A stretch of 42,817 bases of DNA, taken from the NCBI GenBank assembly GCA_017511965.1, contig JAFWHT010000020.1, positions 1 through 42,817 on the forward strand. The letters run 5' to 3'. The DNA is from Candidatus Saccharimonadota bacterium (lineage in GTDB: Bacteria; Patescibacteriota; Saccharimonadia; Saccharimonadales; Saccharimonadaceae). Below, one piece after another: positions 34,404 through 42,817 of this stretch (the first letter of the stretch is position 1; the number at the start of each line of letters is the position of its first letter). A program made the position numbers and the translations under genes. The notes beneath the pieces were generated by a model that saw nothing but the letters and a program-made list of their open reading frames with translations, ran no database searches and was not told where the DNA came from.

Positions 34404-36291
34404 ATCCACGATTTTCTCTTTTTCTTTTTATCGGGTCGAGCTGTCTTTTTCGTAAACGCAAAGACTGTGGCGTAACTTCTAGCAGTTCGTCGTCAAGCAA
34501 AAAATCCAAACATTGTTCTAGGGACAATTGCGTATATGGCGTCAGCTGAATCGCGCCATCCGACGCATGTGTTCGCATATTTGTCAGTTGTTTTTCTCGA
34601 CAAACATTAATATCGAGATCATCTTTTTTGTTCGAAAGCCCAACAATCATTCCTTGATAAACCGGAACTTGTGGCGGGATAAACAAAACACCTCGCGCCT
34701 GCGCCGAGTCTAACGCGTACGCTGTCGAAACCCCATCTTCAAATGATATCAACGCCCCATTTCTTTCCGGCTTATATTTTTCTGTGACCGGGCGATATCC
34801 CGAAGGAATCGACGACATAATTACCGTTCCTTTTGTCTCGGTCAACAAATTATTCCGAAGTCCAATTAGTCCAGCCGTCGAAATCTCATAAACAAATCTC
34901 GTCGTTCCAGAACTCGTTATGTCTTGCGATTTCATTTCGGCGCGTCGGATTCCAAGCTCTTGCGAAACGGCGCCAACATATTCCGACGCAACTTCAATTG
35001 TCAAATCTTCCATCGGTTCCGAACGCACCCCATCGATTTCACGATAAACTACCTCTGGTCTTCCGACCTCCATTTCGTAGCCTTCGCGGCGCATCGTCTC
35101 AATCAAAACCGAAAGATGAAGCTCTCCCCGCCCCGAAACTTTAAAACCAAGCCCGTCTGGCTCTAATTTAAGCGCAATGTTAGTCTCTAGTTCTTTTTCA
35201 AGCCGTTCTGCAATTTGGCGTGAAGTCGTAAATTCGCCTTCACGGCCCTTTAATGGCGAAGTGTTTGGGCCAATATAAATCGAGAGTGTCGGTGCTTCGA
35301 GCGAAATTCCAGGCAAAGCTTTTGGATTATCGCCCGTCGCAATTGTATCGCCAATGTTCGCTTCCGAAACCCCCACGAGCGCCACAATATCCCCCGCAAT
35401 CGCCTCCGGCACCTCTTCTTTTGAGAGCCCCCGATAGGAGAAAATCCGATCAATCTTCGCATGCTTCTCGACGGGTCCTGCCGCCGCATCTTCCCCCGTC
35501 GTCGCAGGGGCTCCGCCGGGGGTCCCCCAAGCGGCGTCACCCGTCGATGTATCATGCAGAACTTTAACCCCTTGCCCCTTCTTCAACTTTCCACTAAAAA
35601 TCTTCCCAATCGCATACTTACCAAGATAATTGTCCGCTGCGAGCGCCGCGACTAAAAGTTGCGCATCAGAAGAATCCGAATTTACGCTCGGCGCCGGAAT
35701 GTCATTAATAATCGCATCAAATATAACATGTAAATCATCATCTAAATCCGTCGAAACTCCCGCCCGGCCCTCGCGCGCAATTGCATAATAAACCGGATAA
35801 AACAGTTGCGATTCGTCCGTCGCGAGCTCCAAAAACAAACTCTCAATCTCGGACAAAACCTCCGCCACGCGCGCCGCCGGCTTATCAATTTTATTAATCA
35901 CTACTACCGGCTTTAAACCCAACCCAAGCGCTTTTGATAAAACAAATTTCGTTTGCGGCATCGGCCCTTCCTGCGCATCAACAATTAATAAAACCCCATC
36001 CGCCATATTCAGAGTTCGCTCAACTTCGCCCGAAAAATCTGCGTGCCCCGGCGTATCAATGATGTTAATCTTATAATCTTGATAGTAAACACAAGTCTGC
36101 TTCGCTGTAATCGTAATTCCTCGCTCGTGTTCCTGATCACCCGAATCCATAATCAAAGTTTGCGACATCTCGGCTTGGTTGTCACGAAAAGTTCGCGACT
36201 GTTTCAAAAGCCCATCAACCAGCGTCGTTTTACCGTGGTCAACGTGCGCTAGTATAGCTACATTCCGAATTTTATCTTTACTAAAAACCAT
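34402..36291 (-). CDS. typA: Ribosome-associated GTPase TypA/BipA
   Basis: TypA is a translational GTPase of the EF-G group involved in 50S assembly and stress adaptation. The 629-aa protein has G1 [11 protein letters not shown]2 region [10 protein letters not shown]3 DTPGHADF and G4 NKIDKPAA, then domain II, the TypA-specific [20 protein letters not shown] block and the C-terminal [12 protein letters not shown] region. Residues about 249-275 are an extra Gly/Ala/Thr-rich loop in domain II, encoded by GC-rich palindrome P6; without it the length fits the family (about 605). TGGTATAAT lies 7 nt before the ATG. Confidence 0.95.
35469..35546. repeat. GC-rich palindrome P6 in frame in typA
   Basis: The 78-nt element has outer arms CGACGGGT/ACCCGTCG and GCCGC/GCGGC, and a strong internal stem of CCCCC/GGGGG. 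Its GC content clearly exceeds that of the surrounding gene. It encodes typA residues about 249-275, a loop extra to the family. Confidence 0.72.
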
Positions 36292-36330
36292 GCAAATTAT
36301 TATACCATAATTTCATGATATAATAAAGGA

Positions 36331-36510
36331 ATGCAATATCAAGTCTATGAACCAAAACGTTGTTGGGTTGGCGATACGCATAAAATTATTTACGATACCA
36401 AAGAAGAAGCCGAGCTTGCCGCAAAGGTTGCCGAGTATGACCATCACGTCAATAACCTAACCGTTTATAAATGCGATTATGGCGACCACTACCATCTAAG
36501 CTCAAACTAA
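36331..36510 (+). CDS. 59-aa small protein with Cys/His-rich end
   Basis: Short gene: MQYQVYEPKRCWVGDTHKII at the start and a C-terminal YKCDYGDHYHLSSN, whose cysteine/histidine spacing recalls half of a zinc ribbon. A helix with KEEAELAAKVAEYD lies between. TGATATAAT (36316-36324) ends 6 nt before the ATG, the same layout as the other leaderless genes, and the frame is clean. The stop overlaps the convergent cutinase-VWA gene by 4 nt. It diverges from typA. Function unknown. Confidence 0.78.
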   Translation: MQYQVYEPKRCWVGDTHKIIYDTKEEAELAAKVAEYDHHVNNLTVYKCDYGDHYHLSSN

Positions 36511-38225
36511 CGTCGCCCAGTATTTGGTGCTTTCGGAATAAACATAGGCGCTTCAATCCCCACCGCATCCTCAGCTACCCCTAAGCTCATTGCACCAAAA
36601 CCCACTCCCGCACTTATCAATACTTCTACGCTGTCTCCACTCATTTCCCCTCTAATCGGTATTAGAGTTAATCTATTTTCCATCCCCAAATCCAATCCCG
36701 ACACCACCACCTTGTCCTCATAAGTTACCCCAACAATCCAATCATTCAAAACTACTGCTATCTTTTCTGCATCGGTATTAAATTTCACCTCGTGTTCACC
36801 ATCCGCAATCAATTCGCTAGAAATCACTTCTATACTAGGCTTCTCCACCATCGACTCATCTTCCTCTACTCTCGGCAAACTATCAAATCTATTCATAATA
36901 TAATCCGTTAGCAGACCTAACTCCCCCATATTTGTCATTACTATTCCATCCGTTCGCCCCGCCAATTCTTCATAACTCGGCGCCACTCCTTCTTCCGTAA
37001 TGATATAAAAATTCACTGGGTCTATCTCTTTACTCAATCGCACTACTTCATCCAAAGTTACCCCGTCTCGATCCGGCAATAAAAACGGTGCATCGGTTAA
37101 AACTACTATCGATTTTGTCGCTCCAAATGTCCATTTTAAATTCTTCATTGCATAGAATGATGCCGAAAGCAAAGATTCCTCCCAATCTCCCCCTCCATCT
37201 ACTTGAATCGCATTGATTGCCGCCGTAAATACTTCTAGCGTACAAGTTTCAAAATTACAATGTTCTACCGGCTCATACTGATCCAAAAGGTCACGATAAT
37301 CGTACAGCGCCACGCGTCCACCCGCCTCAAAAGTCTCACGCGCCAACCGCAATGCTTCTACCTTGTACATATCAATCATTGCACTCATCGACCACGTCGA
37401 ATCAATCAAAATTGCCGTATCACGCGAAGTCGCCACCCTTGCCTTTATCCCAAACTCTTGACAAATTCTACTAAAAATTACCTTTGCCGCATCTTGATAA
37501 AGCGATTTTCCAATGTAATTTGTGTGGTCGCTCATATTCGCCCCCGAACTACAAAAGAAATCCCGCCCATTACACCAAGTTCCTACTTTACCGGCAAACC
37601 CCTCCGGCGCGTAAGGCTGATTTGCCCCCAATTTCCCTTTATACGCATGGCAATCCGGTACATACATCCGATAATCAGACAATCCTTTACCTCTACACGC
37701 TTTCGGAAATATCCCTTTACCTTCTGGCAAATAAATTTTTGGGTCCCCAAATGTTGCTACATAAATCACTTTATCCGCCTTCAAATTGCGAATCGCTCGC
37801 GAAATCACCATCGCTCCTTGCGAATAGCCTCCCAGCACATATTTTGTATTAGGACACTCCGTGTTTACTAGTTGTATTAAATTTTCCACTCCTTGCCGTA
37901 CACTCTCGCCAAATTCATATGCTTCACCTCTACCAAAATATGCCCCAAGCGTCACCAATAAATTATCTATCCCAACCGGAACTGCCGGATATTCTAGATC
38001 AATAAATTCATAACTTAAACTAACCGTTTTTAATCTTTCTTCAATTGTCGATTTGTATTCCAAATAATTCTTGTCCACCCATCTTTCCCCACCCGATCCT
38101 CGCACAAATAGCACCCTCACATCCGGACACCCACTTGCCTGCACCGTAGCTCTCATTGGCACCACCGTCGCCACCACCACCATCGCTATCACCATTAAAA
38201 TTTGATATTTTATTTTTTGCTTCAT
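36507..38225 (-). CDS. Secreted cutinase-like esterase fused to a VWA domain
   Basis: The 572-aa protein has a signal peptide (residues 1-31), a cutinase-type alpha/beta hydrolase domain (33-250) with CPDVRVLFVRGSGG, nucleophile S135 in GGYSQGAMV, the D222 region in NGRDFFC and H234 in SDHTNYIG, then a von Willebrand A domain (about 268-430) with a MIDAS-like D275-S-T-W-S279. A final beta domain follows, ending PKAPNTGRR; APNTG resembles a sortase sorting motif but no membrane helix follows. It is probably exported and may act on host cell envelope lipids or bind a surface; this is inference. The site-C promoter and GCGAGGT precede the ATG. Confidence 0.85.
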   Translation of the reverse strand: MKQKIKYQILMVIAMVVVATVVPMRATVQASGCPDVRVLFVRGSGGERWVDKNYLEYKSTIEERLKTVSLSYEFIDLEYPAVPVGIDNLLVTLGAYFGRGEAYEFGESVRQGVENLIQLVNTECPNTKYVLGGYSQGAMVISRAIRNLKADKVIYVATFGDPKIYLPEGKGIFPKACRGKGLSDYRMYVPDCHAYKGKLGANQPYAPEGFAGKVGTWCNGRDFFCSSGANMSDHTNYIGKSLYQDAAKVIFSRICQEFGIKARVATSRDTAILIDSTWSMSAMIDMYKVEALRLARETFEAGGRVALYDYRDLLDQYEPVEHCNFETCTLEVFTAAINAIQVDGGGDWEESLLSASFYAMKNLKWTFGATKSIVVLTDAPFLLPDRDGVTLDEVVRLSKEIDPVNFYIITEEGVAPSYEELAGRTDGIVMTNMGELGLLTDYIMNRFDSLPRVEEDESMVEKPSIEVISSELIADGEHEVKFNTDAEKIAVVLNDWIVGVTYEDKVVVSGLDLGMENRLTLIPIRGEMSGDSVEVLISAGVGFGAMSLGVAEDAVGIEAPMFIPKAPNTGRR

Positions 38226-38337: not shown

Positions 38338-39573
38338 TTATTTGACAACCAAAAATTTATTTTTACCTTTTTTAATAATTGCCGTTTGCTTTAGCTCAAT
38401 ATCTTCTAAAGCCTTAACCCCATTTATCGTAATCGCGCCTTGCGAAATAAATTCTCGCGCCTTTTTCTTTGACTCTGCAAGTCCATTATTAACCAGCGCA
38501 TCAACTAGCAAAATTCCCTTCGAAACTACCGGCAGATATTCTGCAAACTCATTAATTTCATCTTCCGAAAAACTCGTAAAATCCGTCTCCCGGCTAAATA
38601 ACATTTCGGTCAAATTCTCTACTGCTTCCATCGCCGGTTTTCCGTGAACAACTTCCGTCACACCACGCGCAAGCGCTCTCTGCGCAATTCGCTTTTCCGG
38701 CGCCTTAGCATGTTCTGCCAGAATCTTTTCGATTTCTTCTTTTTCATAAATCGTGTAAATTTTAATCAAATACTCAACCGACTCATCCGGCTGATTTAAC
38801 CAAAACTGATAAAAATCAAACACCGATGTATAGTTGCCACCACCATTATCCGAACTCGCGAGCCAAATCGCATTTCCTTCCGATTTCCCAAACTTCCGTC
38901 CCGTTACCGGATCAATCACCAGCGGCGTCGACCAAACATCTGCCTCGCCCTCTTCAAGTCGTTTAATCAAATGAATTCCACTTGTACAGTTTCCGTATTG
39001 GTCTGCCCCACAAAGTTGCAAATCAATTCCGTGTTCACGATAAAGGTGCAAAAAGTCATAGCCCTGAATTAAAGTATACGAAAATTCTGCATAGCTTATC
39101 CCCGAACCACCTTCACCAATTCGATTTTGCACAAATTGCCGATCGAGTAGCTGTGTCATCGAAAACGCCTTCCCCACCTCACGCAAAAAATCCAAGTACT
39201 TTATCTCGCGGAACCAATCATAGTTATCAACCATCGTCGCATTATTAGAGTTTATTATTCGTTCTACTTGTTCTTTGATGCATTTCTTATTGTGCTCAAC
39301 CTCATCAAGCGATTTTAAATCCCGCTCACCATTTTCTTTTGGATCACCAATCTGGCCCGTTGCACCACCAACTAAAAGATACGGCTGATACCCATGCCTA
39401 ACAAAACAAGCGCACATCAAAAGTGCCGCCAAATTACCAATCGTTAAAGAATCCGCCGACGGATCCGCCCCCCAGTAAAATTTTTTATTCTCGCGCGTGT
39501 CTAGATTCGCCGGATTCTCGATTGTCGTCTCGGCTTTAAACCCACGCCAAATTAATTCTTCTGATAATTTCAT
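38338..39573 (-). CDS. tyrS: Tyrosyl-tRNA synthetase
   Basis: Class I synthetase for tRNA-Tyr, 411 aa. It has the HIGH-equivalent GADPSADSLTIGNLAALL, the tyrosine pocket QGYDFLHLYREHGIDLQLCGADQ, the KMSKS-equivalent KFGKSEGNA and a C-terminal S4 domain (LVNNGLAESKKKAREFISQG). It overlaps rnhA by 4 nt (ATGA), yet has its own TGATATAAT 6 nt before the ATG, inside the rnhA 3' end, so it may be made both ways. Confidence 0.95.
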   Translation of the reverse strand: MKLSEELIWRGFKAETTIENPANLDTRENKKFYWGADPSADSLTIGNLAALLMCACFVRHGYQPYLLVGGATGQIGDPKENGERDLKSLDEVEHNKKCIKEQVERIINSNNATMVDNYDWFREIKYLDFLREVGKAFSMTQLLDRQFVQNRIGEGGSGISYAEFSYTLIQGYDFLHLYREHGIDLQLCGADQYGNCTSGIHLIKRLEEGEADVWSTPLVIDPVTGRKFGKSEGNAIWLASSDNGGGNYTSVFDFYQFWLNQPDESVEYLIKIYTIYEKEEIEKILAEHAKAPEKRIAQRALARGVTEVVHGKPAMEAVENLTEMLFSRETDFTSFSEDEINEFAEYLPVVSKGILLVDALVNNGLAESKKKAREFISQGAITINGVKALEDIELKQTAIIKKGKNKFLVVK

Positions 39574-40004
39574 AGATTTATTATATCACCTTTCCTTGCT
39601 TTATTAGCCCACGAGTCGGCAAGCTCGTTAAAATTAATTCCGCTATGTCCTTTTTCCCAAACCAATCGAACATTATATTTTTTATAAAGTTCGTACAATT
39701 CTTTCACTAAATCTAAATTTTTAATCTCACCCTTAGACTTTTGCCAACCTCTTCTAGCCCACGAATCAGCCCATTTTGTGAGAACATTAATCCAAAACTC
39801 CGAATCCGAATGAATCTCGCAACCCTCCTCTCCAGCATACTTAATCGCCTCAATCATCGCCGTTCCCTCCATCCGAATGTTTGTTGTATCTTTATCACAT
39901 CCAGTTCGCACTGGTTTTGCCTCGTCTCCAAAAACCTCTAAAACCGCCCAGCCCCCCGGCCCAGGATTTGGCGAAGCACTCCCGTCTGTCCATAAAATCT
40001 TCAT
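39570..40004 (-). CDS. rnhA: Ribonuclease HI
   Basis: Removes RNA from RNA-DNA hybrids. I choose ATG 40004 (MKILWTDGSASPNPGPGGWA): TGGTATAAT (40016-40011) lies 6 nt upstream, and a longer frame to 40088 runs through the promoter into the FISUMP cassette. Catalytic acids are visible in WTDGSASPNPGPGG, RMEGTAMIEAIKY, IHSDSEF and near the end GHSGINFNELADSWANKAR. The 144-aa length fits the family. Confidence 0.95.
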   Translation of the reverse strand: MKILWTDGSASPNPGPGGWAVLEVFGDEAKPVRTGCDKDTTNIRMEGTAMIEAIKYAGEEGCEIHSDSEFWINVLTKWADSWARRGWQKSKGEIKNLDLVKELYELYKKYNVRLVWEKGHSGINFNELADSWANKARKGDIINL

Positions 40005-40008
40005 ATCC

Positions 40009-40020
40009 CCATTATACCAC
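40009..40020 (-). promoter_or_regulatory. rnhA promoter abutting the FISUMP cassette
   Basis: Minus-strand TGGTATAAT lies at 40019-40011. The identical 47-bp repeat of the cassette begins at 40031, only a dozen bases away, so the cassette has no room for its own start region on the plus strand. Confidence 0.65.
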
Positions 40021-40030
40021 GCTAAAAAAT

Positions 40031-40077
40031 AATGTCCCACAACGTACCTTGTCCGACACTCGGGATAATAAGACTTA
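40031..40077 (+). repeat. 47-bp inverted repeat, left copy (IR-L)
   Basis: Identical base for base to the complement of 41930-41976. In both copies the frame encodes NVPQRTLSDTRDNKTY, the start of the FISUMP domain. Sequence on both sides diverges at once. An imperfect palindrome TTGTCCGA-CAC-TCGGGATAA lies at 40049-40068, which could be a recombinase core. Confidence 0.93.
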
Positions 40078-40768
40078 CTGGGTTGCAAAGCTAGCTGATG
40101 GTAAATGTTGGATGACGCAGAACTTGGATCACGACATCAATTCTGCCAGAACTTATACTCCAAACGATACAGACATCCCCGCCAACTGGAAACCAGACAA
40201 ATCAACTTATCCTACTAGCACTACGACTTGGGACAATACCAACAACGGCTACAACATCCAACAATCTTACGATCCAGGTAATAAAATTTGGGATGGCACA
40301 CTAAGCTCTACTGGTTTAACTCTAGACGCTATGACTCAGGGCACCAATCAACACTACCACATTGGTAATTATTATAACTTTGGTGCCGCAGTAGCCATGA
40401 ATGATACAAGTAGCTATACTGCACAAAATCAAGACTTAGACCAATCCATCTGTCCCAAAGGCTGGACTTTGCCAAAATCAGGTAATGTTACCATTGCCGG
40501 CTCTTTCCAGTATTTAGTAAATCAGTACAACTGGACAAGTCATACTATGGCCAATCCTAATATATGGGCAGTTCCACTGTATTTCACGCTCGGTGGTCGC
40601 TGGTACGGGATATCAAACTCTATAGCGAGCTCCGGGCTTTTCTGGTCATCAGTCGTGTACTCGTCCGACGCCACTTACTGTTTGGGCGGAGGTTACGATG
40701 GTGGCGTCAGTCCCGCGAACAACCTCAATCGCCACTACGGTCGATCGGTACGTTGTGTGTCTCGGTAG
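40031..40768 (+). pseudogene. Silent FISUMP C-terminal cassette (no start codon, no signal peptide)
   Basis: From the repeat onward the frame encodes a full FISUMP domain: WVAKLADGKCWMTQNLDHD, the block QHYHIGNYYNFGAAVAMND, QSICPKGWTLPK, FWSSVVYSS and RSVRCVSR before TAG. Upstream of the repeat the frame runs through the rnhA promoter and antisense rnhA, without homology to any FISUMP protein and with no ribosome site or suitable start. It lacks the signal peptide and InlB-type domain found in the expressed gene. It best fits a donor or alternative 3' end for the gene at 41197-42817, reached by inversion or gene conversion. A decayed 5'-truncated copy is the alternative, but the intact frame over 245 codons speaks against decay. 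Confidence 0.85.
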
Positions 40769-40782
40769 GTTCACTAACCCCC

Positions 40783-40811
40783 TTGCGCTTTTCTAAACGA
40801 TTTGTTATACT
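40783..40811 (+). promoter_or_regulatory. Promoter of antisense RNA 2
   Basis: TTGCGC (40783-40788), 17 nt, TATACT (40806-40811) with an extended TGT. Predicted start near 40818. Confidence 0.5.
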
Positions 40812-40817
40812 AAAACC

Positions 40818-40886
40818 ATAAAGGCGACGCCTAGCCGTCGCCATGGTTTGCTAGATCACCACTCTATACGAATGGTGATCTTTTTA
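40818..40886 (+). ncRNA. Candidate antisense RNA to the 24-aa ORF
   Basis: About 69 nt. The first hairpin is GGCGACG-CCTAGC-CGTCGCC (40823-40842). The second, GATCACCA/TGGTGATC (40854-40861 with 40873-40880), is followed by TTTTTAGTTTT, a clear intrinsic terminator. The terminator hairpin covers the last codons and stop of the minus-strand mini-ORF, exactly as at 1616-1659. Confidence 0.6.
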
Positions 40887-40930
40887 GTTTTCGAACCGAA
40901 CCAGATTCTAAGAGAAAGCTCTATCCTCAT
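40856..40930 (-). CDS. 24-aa basic amphipathic mini-protein (type I toxin-like)
   Basis: ATG 40930 follows the ribosome site GAAAGGAG at the right distance. The product starts MRIELSLRIWFGSKTKK and ends ITIRIEW; alternating polar and hydrophobic residues suggest a two-strand amphipathic hairpin with a basic turn and net positive charge. It shares size, charge and alternation with the mini-protein at 1581-1652, though the sequences differ. After the stop, the hairpin GGCGACG/CGTCGCC followed by TTTATGGTTTT could end the mRNA. An upstream promoter may be site B (41139-41111), which would give a leader of about 175 nt containing palindrome P7. Confidence 0.55.
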   Translation of the reverse strand: MRIELSLRIWFGSKTKKITIRIEW

Positions 40931-41007
40931 AATTCGTTCTCCTTTCTGTTTTTGTGTCTAGTGTTTCCAACTTTGGGGAGATAAATCTAGGCTATCTAGG
41001 TTCACCG

Positions 41008-41081
41008 TGTATAAATCCCCCCGTCCAGGAGCGAACTATGCGAACTAGTTCGCTCACTGCGGAGGGAATCTATATTACTCA
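41008..41081. repeat. Palindrome P7 in the leader of the 24-aa ORF
   Basis: Centred on GCGAACTAGTTCGC (41041-41053 region), with arms GAGCGAAC/GTTCGCTC (41029-41036 with 41048-41055) and a looser outer stem AATCCCCCCG with CGGAGGGAAT. It is located between a FISUMP gene and its mini-ORF, as P1 is at 1284. Confidence 0.6.
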
Positions 41082-41110
41082 CAAACTAAAATTTTCGCCA
41101 ACCTGCATTC

Positions 41111-41139
41111 ACCCTACCATGCCTTAAAAATAATTGCAA
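41111..41139 (-). promoter_or_regulatory. G-tract promoter (site B), likely for the 24-aa ORF mRNA
   Basis: Minus strand: GGGGG, TTGCAA (41139-41134), a 17-nt spacer ending CATGG, and TAGGGT (41116-41111). CATGGTAGGGT is identical to site A. The gap from here to the FISUMP stop at 41197 shows nothing else. Confidence 0.45.
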
Positions 41140-41196
41140 CCCCCAAAGCCCTAAAAACCATGCATAAACGTTTTCACCTATAAAAATTTTTATTAA

Positions 41197-42817
41197 TTAT
41201 CGCGCGACGCAACGGATAGGGCCACCATAAGCCGAGTTATATGATGCTGGAAATTCAGAATATGATATATAAAATACGTCATTCCCACCCAATAGTGATT
41301 GTTTACTAAATGCTAATAACTTCGGTTTTCCATTATTTGGCTCAGAAGTTTTATAACCAGACGACGATATACCCATACGATACGGATACCCAGAAAATGA
41401 GCCCGCATCTATTGAACCAGCAGCTATGTAATTGAATGGCGAGGCTATAATTCGCTGGATATTAGCAGTAGCATCACTTCCAAATTCATAAACAGTATAA
41501 AGTAGATTATCAAAAGATTTTTCGCCAGAAGCCTTAGGAAGCCTCCAGCCTTTCGGGCAGATTGAATCTGGCATATCTGCAGTGTGATTTACAGCCGTCG
41601 TTCCAGCATATGCGGCGTACCAATTATAGCTATTCCCAAGATGCCAATATGGCTGACCACTAGTTTGAGTTGGACCATTATAATATGGCGCTTCACCGAT
41701 AGTTGTAGAATAACCATTCGCATAATATACATTACCAAAATCATAACTTCTTGATGCATTTATACTATTCCAGTTAGCTGCATATGCAGTTCTAGTATTT
41801 TCTTGTGGAGTCCAACTGGTTTTACTATTTAAATCCGTGGTAGCGCTAGTTAAAGCTACTGAGGTAGAGAGGTCTAAATCGAGATTTTGAGCCATCCAAC
41901 AATTTCCATCTGCAAGCTTTCTTACCACATAAGTCTTATTATCCCGAGTGTCGGACAAGGTACGTTGTGGGACATTGTCAGCCGAGAAGTAATCATTAGT
42001 GTTTTCGGCTGTAGCAGTGTTCTTTGGTGTGTAAGTATCATTACATATCGCACTGGTCATTTGTTGCATGTTGGTAATTGATGTGAGACTGTTCTTTGGT
42101 TGCCAGATAGCATAGAGTGTTACGGTACTTTCATTGTTAGTATTTAAGTTAGATACACTTTGTTCGTCAGTATATGTAGCAGTAAGTGCAGTTTTATCAG
42201 TAGACCAACCCAGGAATCTAAAGCCAGGGCGTGTAAAGCCATTAGGGCTAAGGGTTTTGGTTTCATTAGGAAGGAAAGTTTGAGTGGTAGTAGAACCTGA
42301 TACAGCTTCGGTAGTGTTATAGGTAGTTTGTCCAGTTTGATTAGCATCAAAGACTACAGCATATGCATCACATGCAATTGGTGTAGTAAGAAAGTAGCTG
42401 ATTACATTATCCCCTGCACCAGCAGTTGATTCGGCTAGTTTGTAAGAACCAGCTTCGGTAGTAGGTGCAACACTAACGCCATAGTAGACTGGGTAAGTGT
42501 CAGTTGTAGTAGCACCAGCACCAGTTTGTCCATTGCCTGAAGCAGATGATTTGGTAGTTAGTTCGGTCATAGCATCATTTAAGCCAATAAAAGTCCCAGT
42601 AGCAAGATTATTGGTCATACTATAACCCCAAGTACCTAAGAAACTTCCACCACTACCATCCTCGCCTATGATGGGAAGTGGGTTTTCTTTGGTACCCATT
42701 GTGGGGATAATCTTGCTACTAGGACTGCTATTTGCTTTGTCAGCTAGTCCAGTTTGTTCGTTTACTTTATATAATGTAGAATCGGCTGGGCCTTTGATAG
42801 ACAGAGTATAGCCCAAA
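41197..42817 (-). CDS. FISUMP-domain surface protein, N-terminus outside window
   Basis: Open to the right edge. The N-terminal part present is Ser/Thr/Gly-rich beta sequence (SFLGTWGYSMTNNLATGTF; YYGVSVAPTTEAGSYKLAES), like the domain before the FISUMP part in the 9136 gene. Then follows an InlB/Flg_new repeat (FTRPGFRFLGWSTDKTALTA ... TLYAIW), a linker with TSAICNDTYTPKN, and the FISUMP domain from the 47-bp repeat onward: NVPQRTLSDTRDNKTY, ADGNCWMAQNLDLDL, YWHLGNSYNWYAAYAG, SICPKGWRLPKAS and PIRCVAR. It should be the expressed member of the inversion pair. The C-terminus after the repeat is about 60-70% like the cassette by eye. Confidence 0.88.
   Translation of the reverse strand, partial: LGYTLSIKGPADSTLYKVNEQTGLADKANSSPSSKIIPTMGTKENPLPIIGEDGSGGSFLGTWGYSMTNNLATGTFIGLNDAMTELTTKSSASGNGQTGAGATTTDTYPVYYGVSVAPTTEAGSYKLAESTAGAGDNVISYFLTTPIACDAYAVVFDANQTGQTTYNTTEAVSGSTTTQTFLPNETKTLSPNGFTRPGFRFLGWSTDKTALTATYTDEQSVSNLNTNNESTVTLYAIWQPKNSLTSITNMQQMTSAICNDTYTPKNTATAENTNDYFSADNVPQRTLSDTRDNKTYVVRKLADGNCWMAQNLDLDLSTSVALTSATTDLNSKTSWTPQENTRTAYAANWNSINASRSYDFGNVYYANGYSTTIGEAPYYNGPTQTSGQPYWHLGNSYNWYAAYAGTTAVNHTADMPDSICPKGWRLPKASGEKSFDNLLYTVYEFGSDATANIQRIIASPFNYIAAGSIDAGSFSGYPYRMGISSSGYKTSEPNNGKPKLLAFSKQSLLGGNDVFYISYSEFPASYNSAYGGPIRCVAR
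41930..41976 (-). repeat. 47-bp inverted repeat, right copy (IR-R)
   Basis: Exact complement of 40031-40077, inside the expressed FISUMP gene. It codes for the same 16 residues in the same phase, so recombination between the copies keeps the reading frame. Confidence 0.93.

Follow-up and report, generated by a model that had tools for sequence, protein, structure and literature searches.

A headless FISUMP module facing a full gene across an exact inverted repeat in a Saccharibacteria genome

Saccharibacteria live on other bacteria, and one of their genomes carries, at the end of a contig, an arrangement that raises a question about how their FISUMP proteins diversify. Two C-terminal domains of this family face each other between inverted copies of a 47-bp sequence, and from this geometry an invertible switch had been predicted. 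Is the segment a switch, or the product of recombination among related genes? The window, that is, the whole stretch of DNA analysed, is 42,817 nt long and constitutes an entire contig (C37) of a draft metagenome-type assembly of 695,404 bp in 39 contigs, 97% complete, in which many contig ends fall in FISUMP genes. Congeneric genomes bear the name Candidatus Saccharibacteria in their records, and ruminant guts are their main source.

The inverted repeat and the two domains beside it

The features that bear on the question, in window coordinates, are these:

39570..40007, minus strand: rnhA, with a TATAAT box at 40011-40016 between it and the left repeat
40031..40077, plus strand: left copy of the exact 47-bp inverted repeat, the first FISUMP-domain codons (NVPQRTLSDTRDNKT)
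40031..40768, plus strand: headless FISUMP C-terminal module of 245 aa (the cassette), a complete predicted domain without start, signal peptide or ribosome site
40577..40768, plus strand: variable region of the cassette, of the type made by diversity-generating retroelements (DGRs), conserved codons alternating with hypervariable ones
40774..40890, plus strand: 3' flank of the cassette, with a promoter-like TTGCGC-TATACT and two hairpins, the second followed by T5
41197..42816, minus strand: convergent FISUMP gene, running off the contig; 43.1 bits against TIGR02145, above the cut-off of 41.65
41197..41976, minus strand: C-terminal FISUMP domain of the convergent gene, repeat included
41930..41976, minus strand: right copy of the 47-bp repeat, an exact match to the left copy
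41977..42816, minus strand: N-terminal half of the convergent gene, a List_Bact repeat plus linker, its 5' end on another contig

The two 47-mers are identical, inverted and in the same codon phase (NVPQRTLSDTRDNKT...), and all four of their edges are sharp: the first base outside is T at one copy and C at the other, the first base inside C as against T. The two tails do not differ at any of the 47 positions and then fall to 67% identity over the next 60 bp. The original description of an exact pair in one codon phase, with flanks that diverge at the first base, held in every respect on re-checking. A chance origin was rejected, as an exact match of this length in 43 kb is negligible by chance. 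The genome contains two copies only (2 mismatches allowed, first 21 bases); a search of 146 further genomes of the genus that tolerated up to 3 mismatches did not find the repeat, nor did an exact search of viral contigs. It has no clear dyad (shuffles 0.14). The left copy contains the -35-like hexamer of rnhA (GGGACA, 40033-40038), and the rnhA TATAAT box is intact despite the adjoining repeat. Farther from the repeat, 36507-38225 on the minus strand encodes a protein that looks secreted and combines cutinase and von Willebrand A domains.

The cassette has 245 sense codons, a stop at 40766-40768 and no N-terminal half; its stop-free frame extends 186 nt farther upstream, antisense to rnhA. 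The claim that the plus-strand copy is headless yet intact, with its codons open and no start, signal peptide or ribosome site, was likewise borne out. Its TIGR02145 (Fib_succ_major) score of 41.1 bits lies just under the cut-off (E 3e-10), AlphaFold2 renders it as one confident domain (pLDDT 96.3), and it has lost none of the 32 columns that are invariant in 42 relatives. A decayed pseudogene was rejected, since the cassette has no stops and no conserved residue is lost. Such a full set of conserved residues would match the expectation for a maintained switch and would count against reading the cassette as a relic. That said, the exact repeat already marks the arrangement as recent, so that intactness is weak evidence of function. 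The cassette is presumably silent at present. Searches with a PDB sequence profile and with Foldseek gave no significant match for the module; family and literature grounds suggest a C-type-lectin fold. No phage records encoding the module were found.

The cassette is followed by DNA that it shares with another family member. Its 3' flank matches that of the FISUMP gene on C28 (55 bp at 89%, 40 bp at 97.5%), so the module seems to have been displaced along with its flank. The flank may possibly encode a small RNA, given stable hairpins of which the second has a T-run (z -4.2); an Rfam scan of the window's last 4.8 kb gave no match. Similar -35/-10 motifs occur downstream of other FISUMP genes.

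The convergent gene is incomplete on this contig, and matching N-terminal halves lie at three other contig ends. Judged from sequence, two of these clearly look like signal peptides, and on that basis the product of the convergent gene is probably exported. Its tail and that of the cassette are 37% identical in protein. The two domains do face each other, cassette on the plus strand and gene tail on the minus strand, and the swap foreseen for an inversion of 1.85 kb works out: inverting 40031-41976 in silico joins the N-terminal half of the convergent gene to the cassette tail in a single open frame of 525 aa, and the other tail becomes headless. The repeats thus resemble those of a shufflon in being in frame and so placed that inversion would exchange the C-termini of one protein that is probably exported. 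With an in-frame product, a confident and complete domain and no conserved residue lost, the locus is inversion-competent.

Recombinases, relatives and assembly

The original prediction left the recombinase to be encoded elsewhere or the inversion to the RecA pathway, and proposed a search for serine or tyrosine recombinases near other FISUMP genes. That search found none. No match to PF00589 (Phage_integrase) exists in the 97%-complete genome, and no XerC/XerD was found by this route. Two large serine recombinases are encoded, by open frames 697 and 558 aa long; they lie on C21 and C13, two contigs free of FISUMP genes, and neither adjoins the candidate invertible segment. The IncI shufflon (R64 pilV / Rci; PMC5430464) is similar in its inverted repeats within coding sequence, where inversion would give a surface adhesin a different C-terminus without a change of frame. 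It differs from the window in having multiple segments and several repeat copies with a 19-23 bp core, where the window has two copies of 47 bp, and in having a cognate tyrosine recombinase, usually adjacent, where no rci-like enzyme is found next to the window's repeats or anywhere in the genome. Moreover, one orientation alone is assembled here.

At the tyrS-rnhA locus, 20 relatives have full FISUMP genes in varied slots or none at all; in other species of the genus a full gene stands upstream of rnhA or separates it from tyrS, or there is none. The site appears, from these comparisons, to be one of gain and loss of FISUMP genes over time. The convergent arrangement is also singular: a survey of 157 FISUMP ORFs in 117 partly overlapping loci yielded 21 adjacent pairs, 16 tandem, 4 divergent and one convergent, which is the window pair. 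Nowhere else do two facing neighbours have exact inverted repeats of at least 28 bp at their FISUMP starts. Inverted repeats at L115 and L207 were rejected as matches to the window pair because they lie outside the domain-start motif. The one at L115, with an arm in a FISUMP tail, resembles a template/variable-region pair.

The contigs of this assembly overlap at their ends by exactly 141 bp, the length expected of a de Bruijn assembler run at k = 141. Such an assembler reads through a repeat of 47 bp, and it tends to branch or stop at places where the two orders are both common. It follows from the overlaps that both repeats were spanned, and the assembly is unbroken at them and gives one orientation only (there is one genome per species), which speaks against the alternative order being frequent but leaves room for a rare one. 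The geometry and the in-frame swap of the predicted switch stand, while no recombinase, recurrence or second orientation lends support to a dedicated one.

Probable exchange among FISUMP paralogues and the origin of the segment

The genome contains roughly 25 FISUMP paralogues. Comparison of 23 of these genes (253 pairs) revealed 96 exact blocks of at least 30 bp in 47 of the pairs, many of them 60-140 bp long, while between genomes 3220 pairs yielded two exact blocks of at least 35 bp. This within-genome excess is not explained by codon conservation, and the tracts appear to be the result of recent recombination or duplication. The 47-bp repeat is therefore real and recent but unexceptional, because exact blocks of 40-140 bp are commonly shared among these paralogues, although most such tracts sit within longer similar stretches and few are as isolated as the window's. 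A conserved motif, DxRDNKxY, marks the start of the FISUMP domain. Seven of 19 sharp right ends of blocks of at least 40 bp, the window pair included, fall in this motif, which makes up 5.2% of bases; the seven are non-independent and represent about three or four events or clusters. In C26/C30/C37, and again in C10/C37, one 5' sequence runs into different tails. The identity of the two 47-mers seems better explained by family-wide recombination at the domain start than by a dedicated switch.

Fragments of FISUMP genes truncated at the 5' end, without inverted repeats, also occur in relatives (L117, L203). Two further headless candidates, L138 (a stop) and L114 (a frame break), proved to be split genes and not truncations; none of the four has a matching inverted repeat.

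We consider it probable that the cassette is a silent, displaced C-terminal module produced by recombination among paralogues, one that homologous exchange could invert, probably at a low rate. The segment would be a 5'-truncated FISUMP C-terminal module with its own 3' flank, inverted between a full FISUMP gene and rnhA, and its origin would most likely be recombination among the paralogues of this Saccharibacteria genome. These would swap their 5' modules, for export, and their 3' modules, which carry the binding domain, at DxRDNKxY, and the 47-bp repeat would be the tract left by such an exchange, both tails having recently had the same 5' junction. The window would then preserve one exchange between facing partners, one of them without its 5' half. 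An exact, in-frame pair of inverted repeats could let homologous recombination turn the 1.85 kb round on rare occasions, which would bring the other tail onto the exported N-terminus. We infer both this order of events and the low-rate, RecA-type inversion. Recombination of paralogous surface genes elsewhere is alike in its exact intragenomic tracts, sharp ends at domain borders and 5' modules set on different 3' modules; the window differs in that one partner lacks its 5' half and is inverted beside the other, so that exchange equals inversion.

Other readings of the same locus can be weighed against this one. A working, shufflon-like switch, in which the repeats alternate two binding domains on one stalk through RecA or a distant serine recombinase, would account for the exact in-frame repeats at a domain boundary, the intact product after inversion and the undecayed cassette domain, and the genome does encode two serine recombinases. 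These enzymes are on FISUMP-free contigs, however, a tyrosine recombinase is lacking, the repeat and convergent arrangement are confined to one species, and the contig runs unbroken through repeats without a clear dyad; we regard such a switch as unlikely. A silent, intact module could also act as a donor for gene conversion of the tails of the full gene or its paralogues, as in pilS/pilE or vls, and the family-wide exact tracts do imply conversion or crossover. There is just one such module, though, beside one gene; its tail shares no tract of at least 40 bp with the other beyond the 47 bp, at the low protein identity noted above, and FISUMP-rich relatives have full genes instead of silent arrays. 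The donor role is hence quite improbable.

Finally, the arrangement might be an artefact, either a chimeric join beside rnhA or a wrong orientation through the repeat. A fragmented draft whose contigs so often end in FISUMP genes invites this suspicion, as does a comparable headless case in the fragmented relative that carries L117. The contig overlaps are longer than the repeat, however, which was accordingly spanned, and a misjoin through the repeat would only swap tails: it could not create the junction between rnhA and the repeat, where there is no shared sequence. An artefact is very unlikely.

Hypermutation of FISUMP tips

The displaced module belongs to a family whose tips are diversified by another route. 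Two DGR loci were found in the genome (G000):

C8:33088-37720 (L058): complete DGR, with a FISUMP target, template TR1 (35720-35903) and an intact reverse transcriptase (35937-37175, 413 aa)
C7:3832-7836 (L067): second DGR, with template TR2 beside a broken reverse transcriptase frame

The first of these combines reverse transcriptase, template and a target with adenine-specific mismatches. TR1 differs from its C8 target at 11 adenines and 1 non-adenine, and from two further targets at 14 and 2 and at 21 and 3, respectively. The differences between TR2 and the C7 target comprise 15 adenines and no other base, a perfect signature despite the broken enzyme, so this target was diversified before the break or by the other reverse transcriptase. 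FISUMP tails on C4, C28, C36, C27, C29 and C31 also match TR1 or TR2 with adenine-biased mismatches, and are apparent remote targets of the two templates.

The cassette tail bears the same kind of mark. Its variable region has the NNY-type excess of first- and second-position changes relative to codons 26-182 (Fisher p 0.0009), and its column pattern agrees with DGR-type variability. No cognate template for this tail type is present in this assembly; templates for it occur in relatives, where all mismatches fall at adenine (27/27 at L079 in G009, 30/30 at L145 on JAFWLE010000010.1). Of 170 genomes of the genus, 92 carry the reverse transcriptase. DGRs with Fib_succ_major targets have been published (PMC4159848), as has a DGR clade restricted to Patescibacteria/CPR (PMC8144416), so the DGR part of these observations is not new in kind. 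The systems of those two reports (PMC4159848; PMC8144416) share their target domain with the loci described here, which have an intact reverse transcriptase, TR1 and TR2 as templates, and adenine-biased mismatches in the variable regions of several FISUMP genes; the cassette's relatives are themselves exact targets of DGRs. Unlike the event in the window, a DGR rewrites about 150-190 bp; it moves no 738-bp module and makes no 47-bp inverted repeat. The DGR signature thus leaves the inverted module unexplained, yet it indicates, on sequence grounds, that FISUMP tails are under diversification.

Our literature search found no paper on FISUMP in Saccharibacteria, nor on inversion there. Secreted FISUMP proteins in such large numbers, their tips variable through DGRs, could plausibly serve to bind partners. 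Tentatively, diversification might proceed on two tiers, with DGR hypermutation of the tips and reassortment of whole domains onto different stalks at the domain-start motif; the same tentative reading would make the window an in-frame inversion pair caught within that scheme. If a single motif does let domains pass from stalk to stalk, point hypermutation and domain swapping would operate together in these reduced genomes, and pairs like the window's would offer a measurable readout of the swapping. If the cassette is a relic, it would still be a clear example of turnover in such families.

Two smaller open reading frames accompany the retroelements. The C8 locus has a companion ORF of 207 aa that is also found at the second DGR locus and has no Pfam, PADLOC or PHROG match, and a ParE-type toxin ORF (PF05016) lies between the DGR target and the template at C8:35230-35529.
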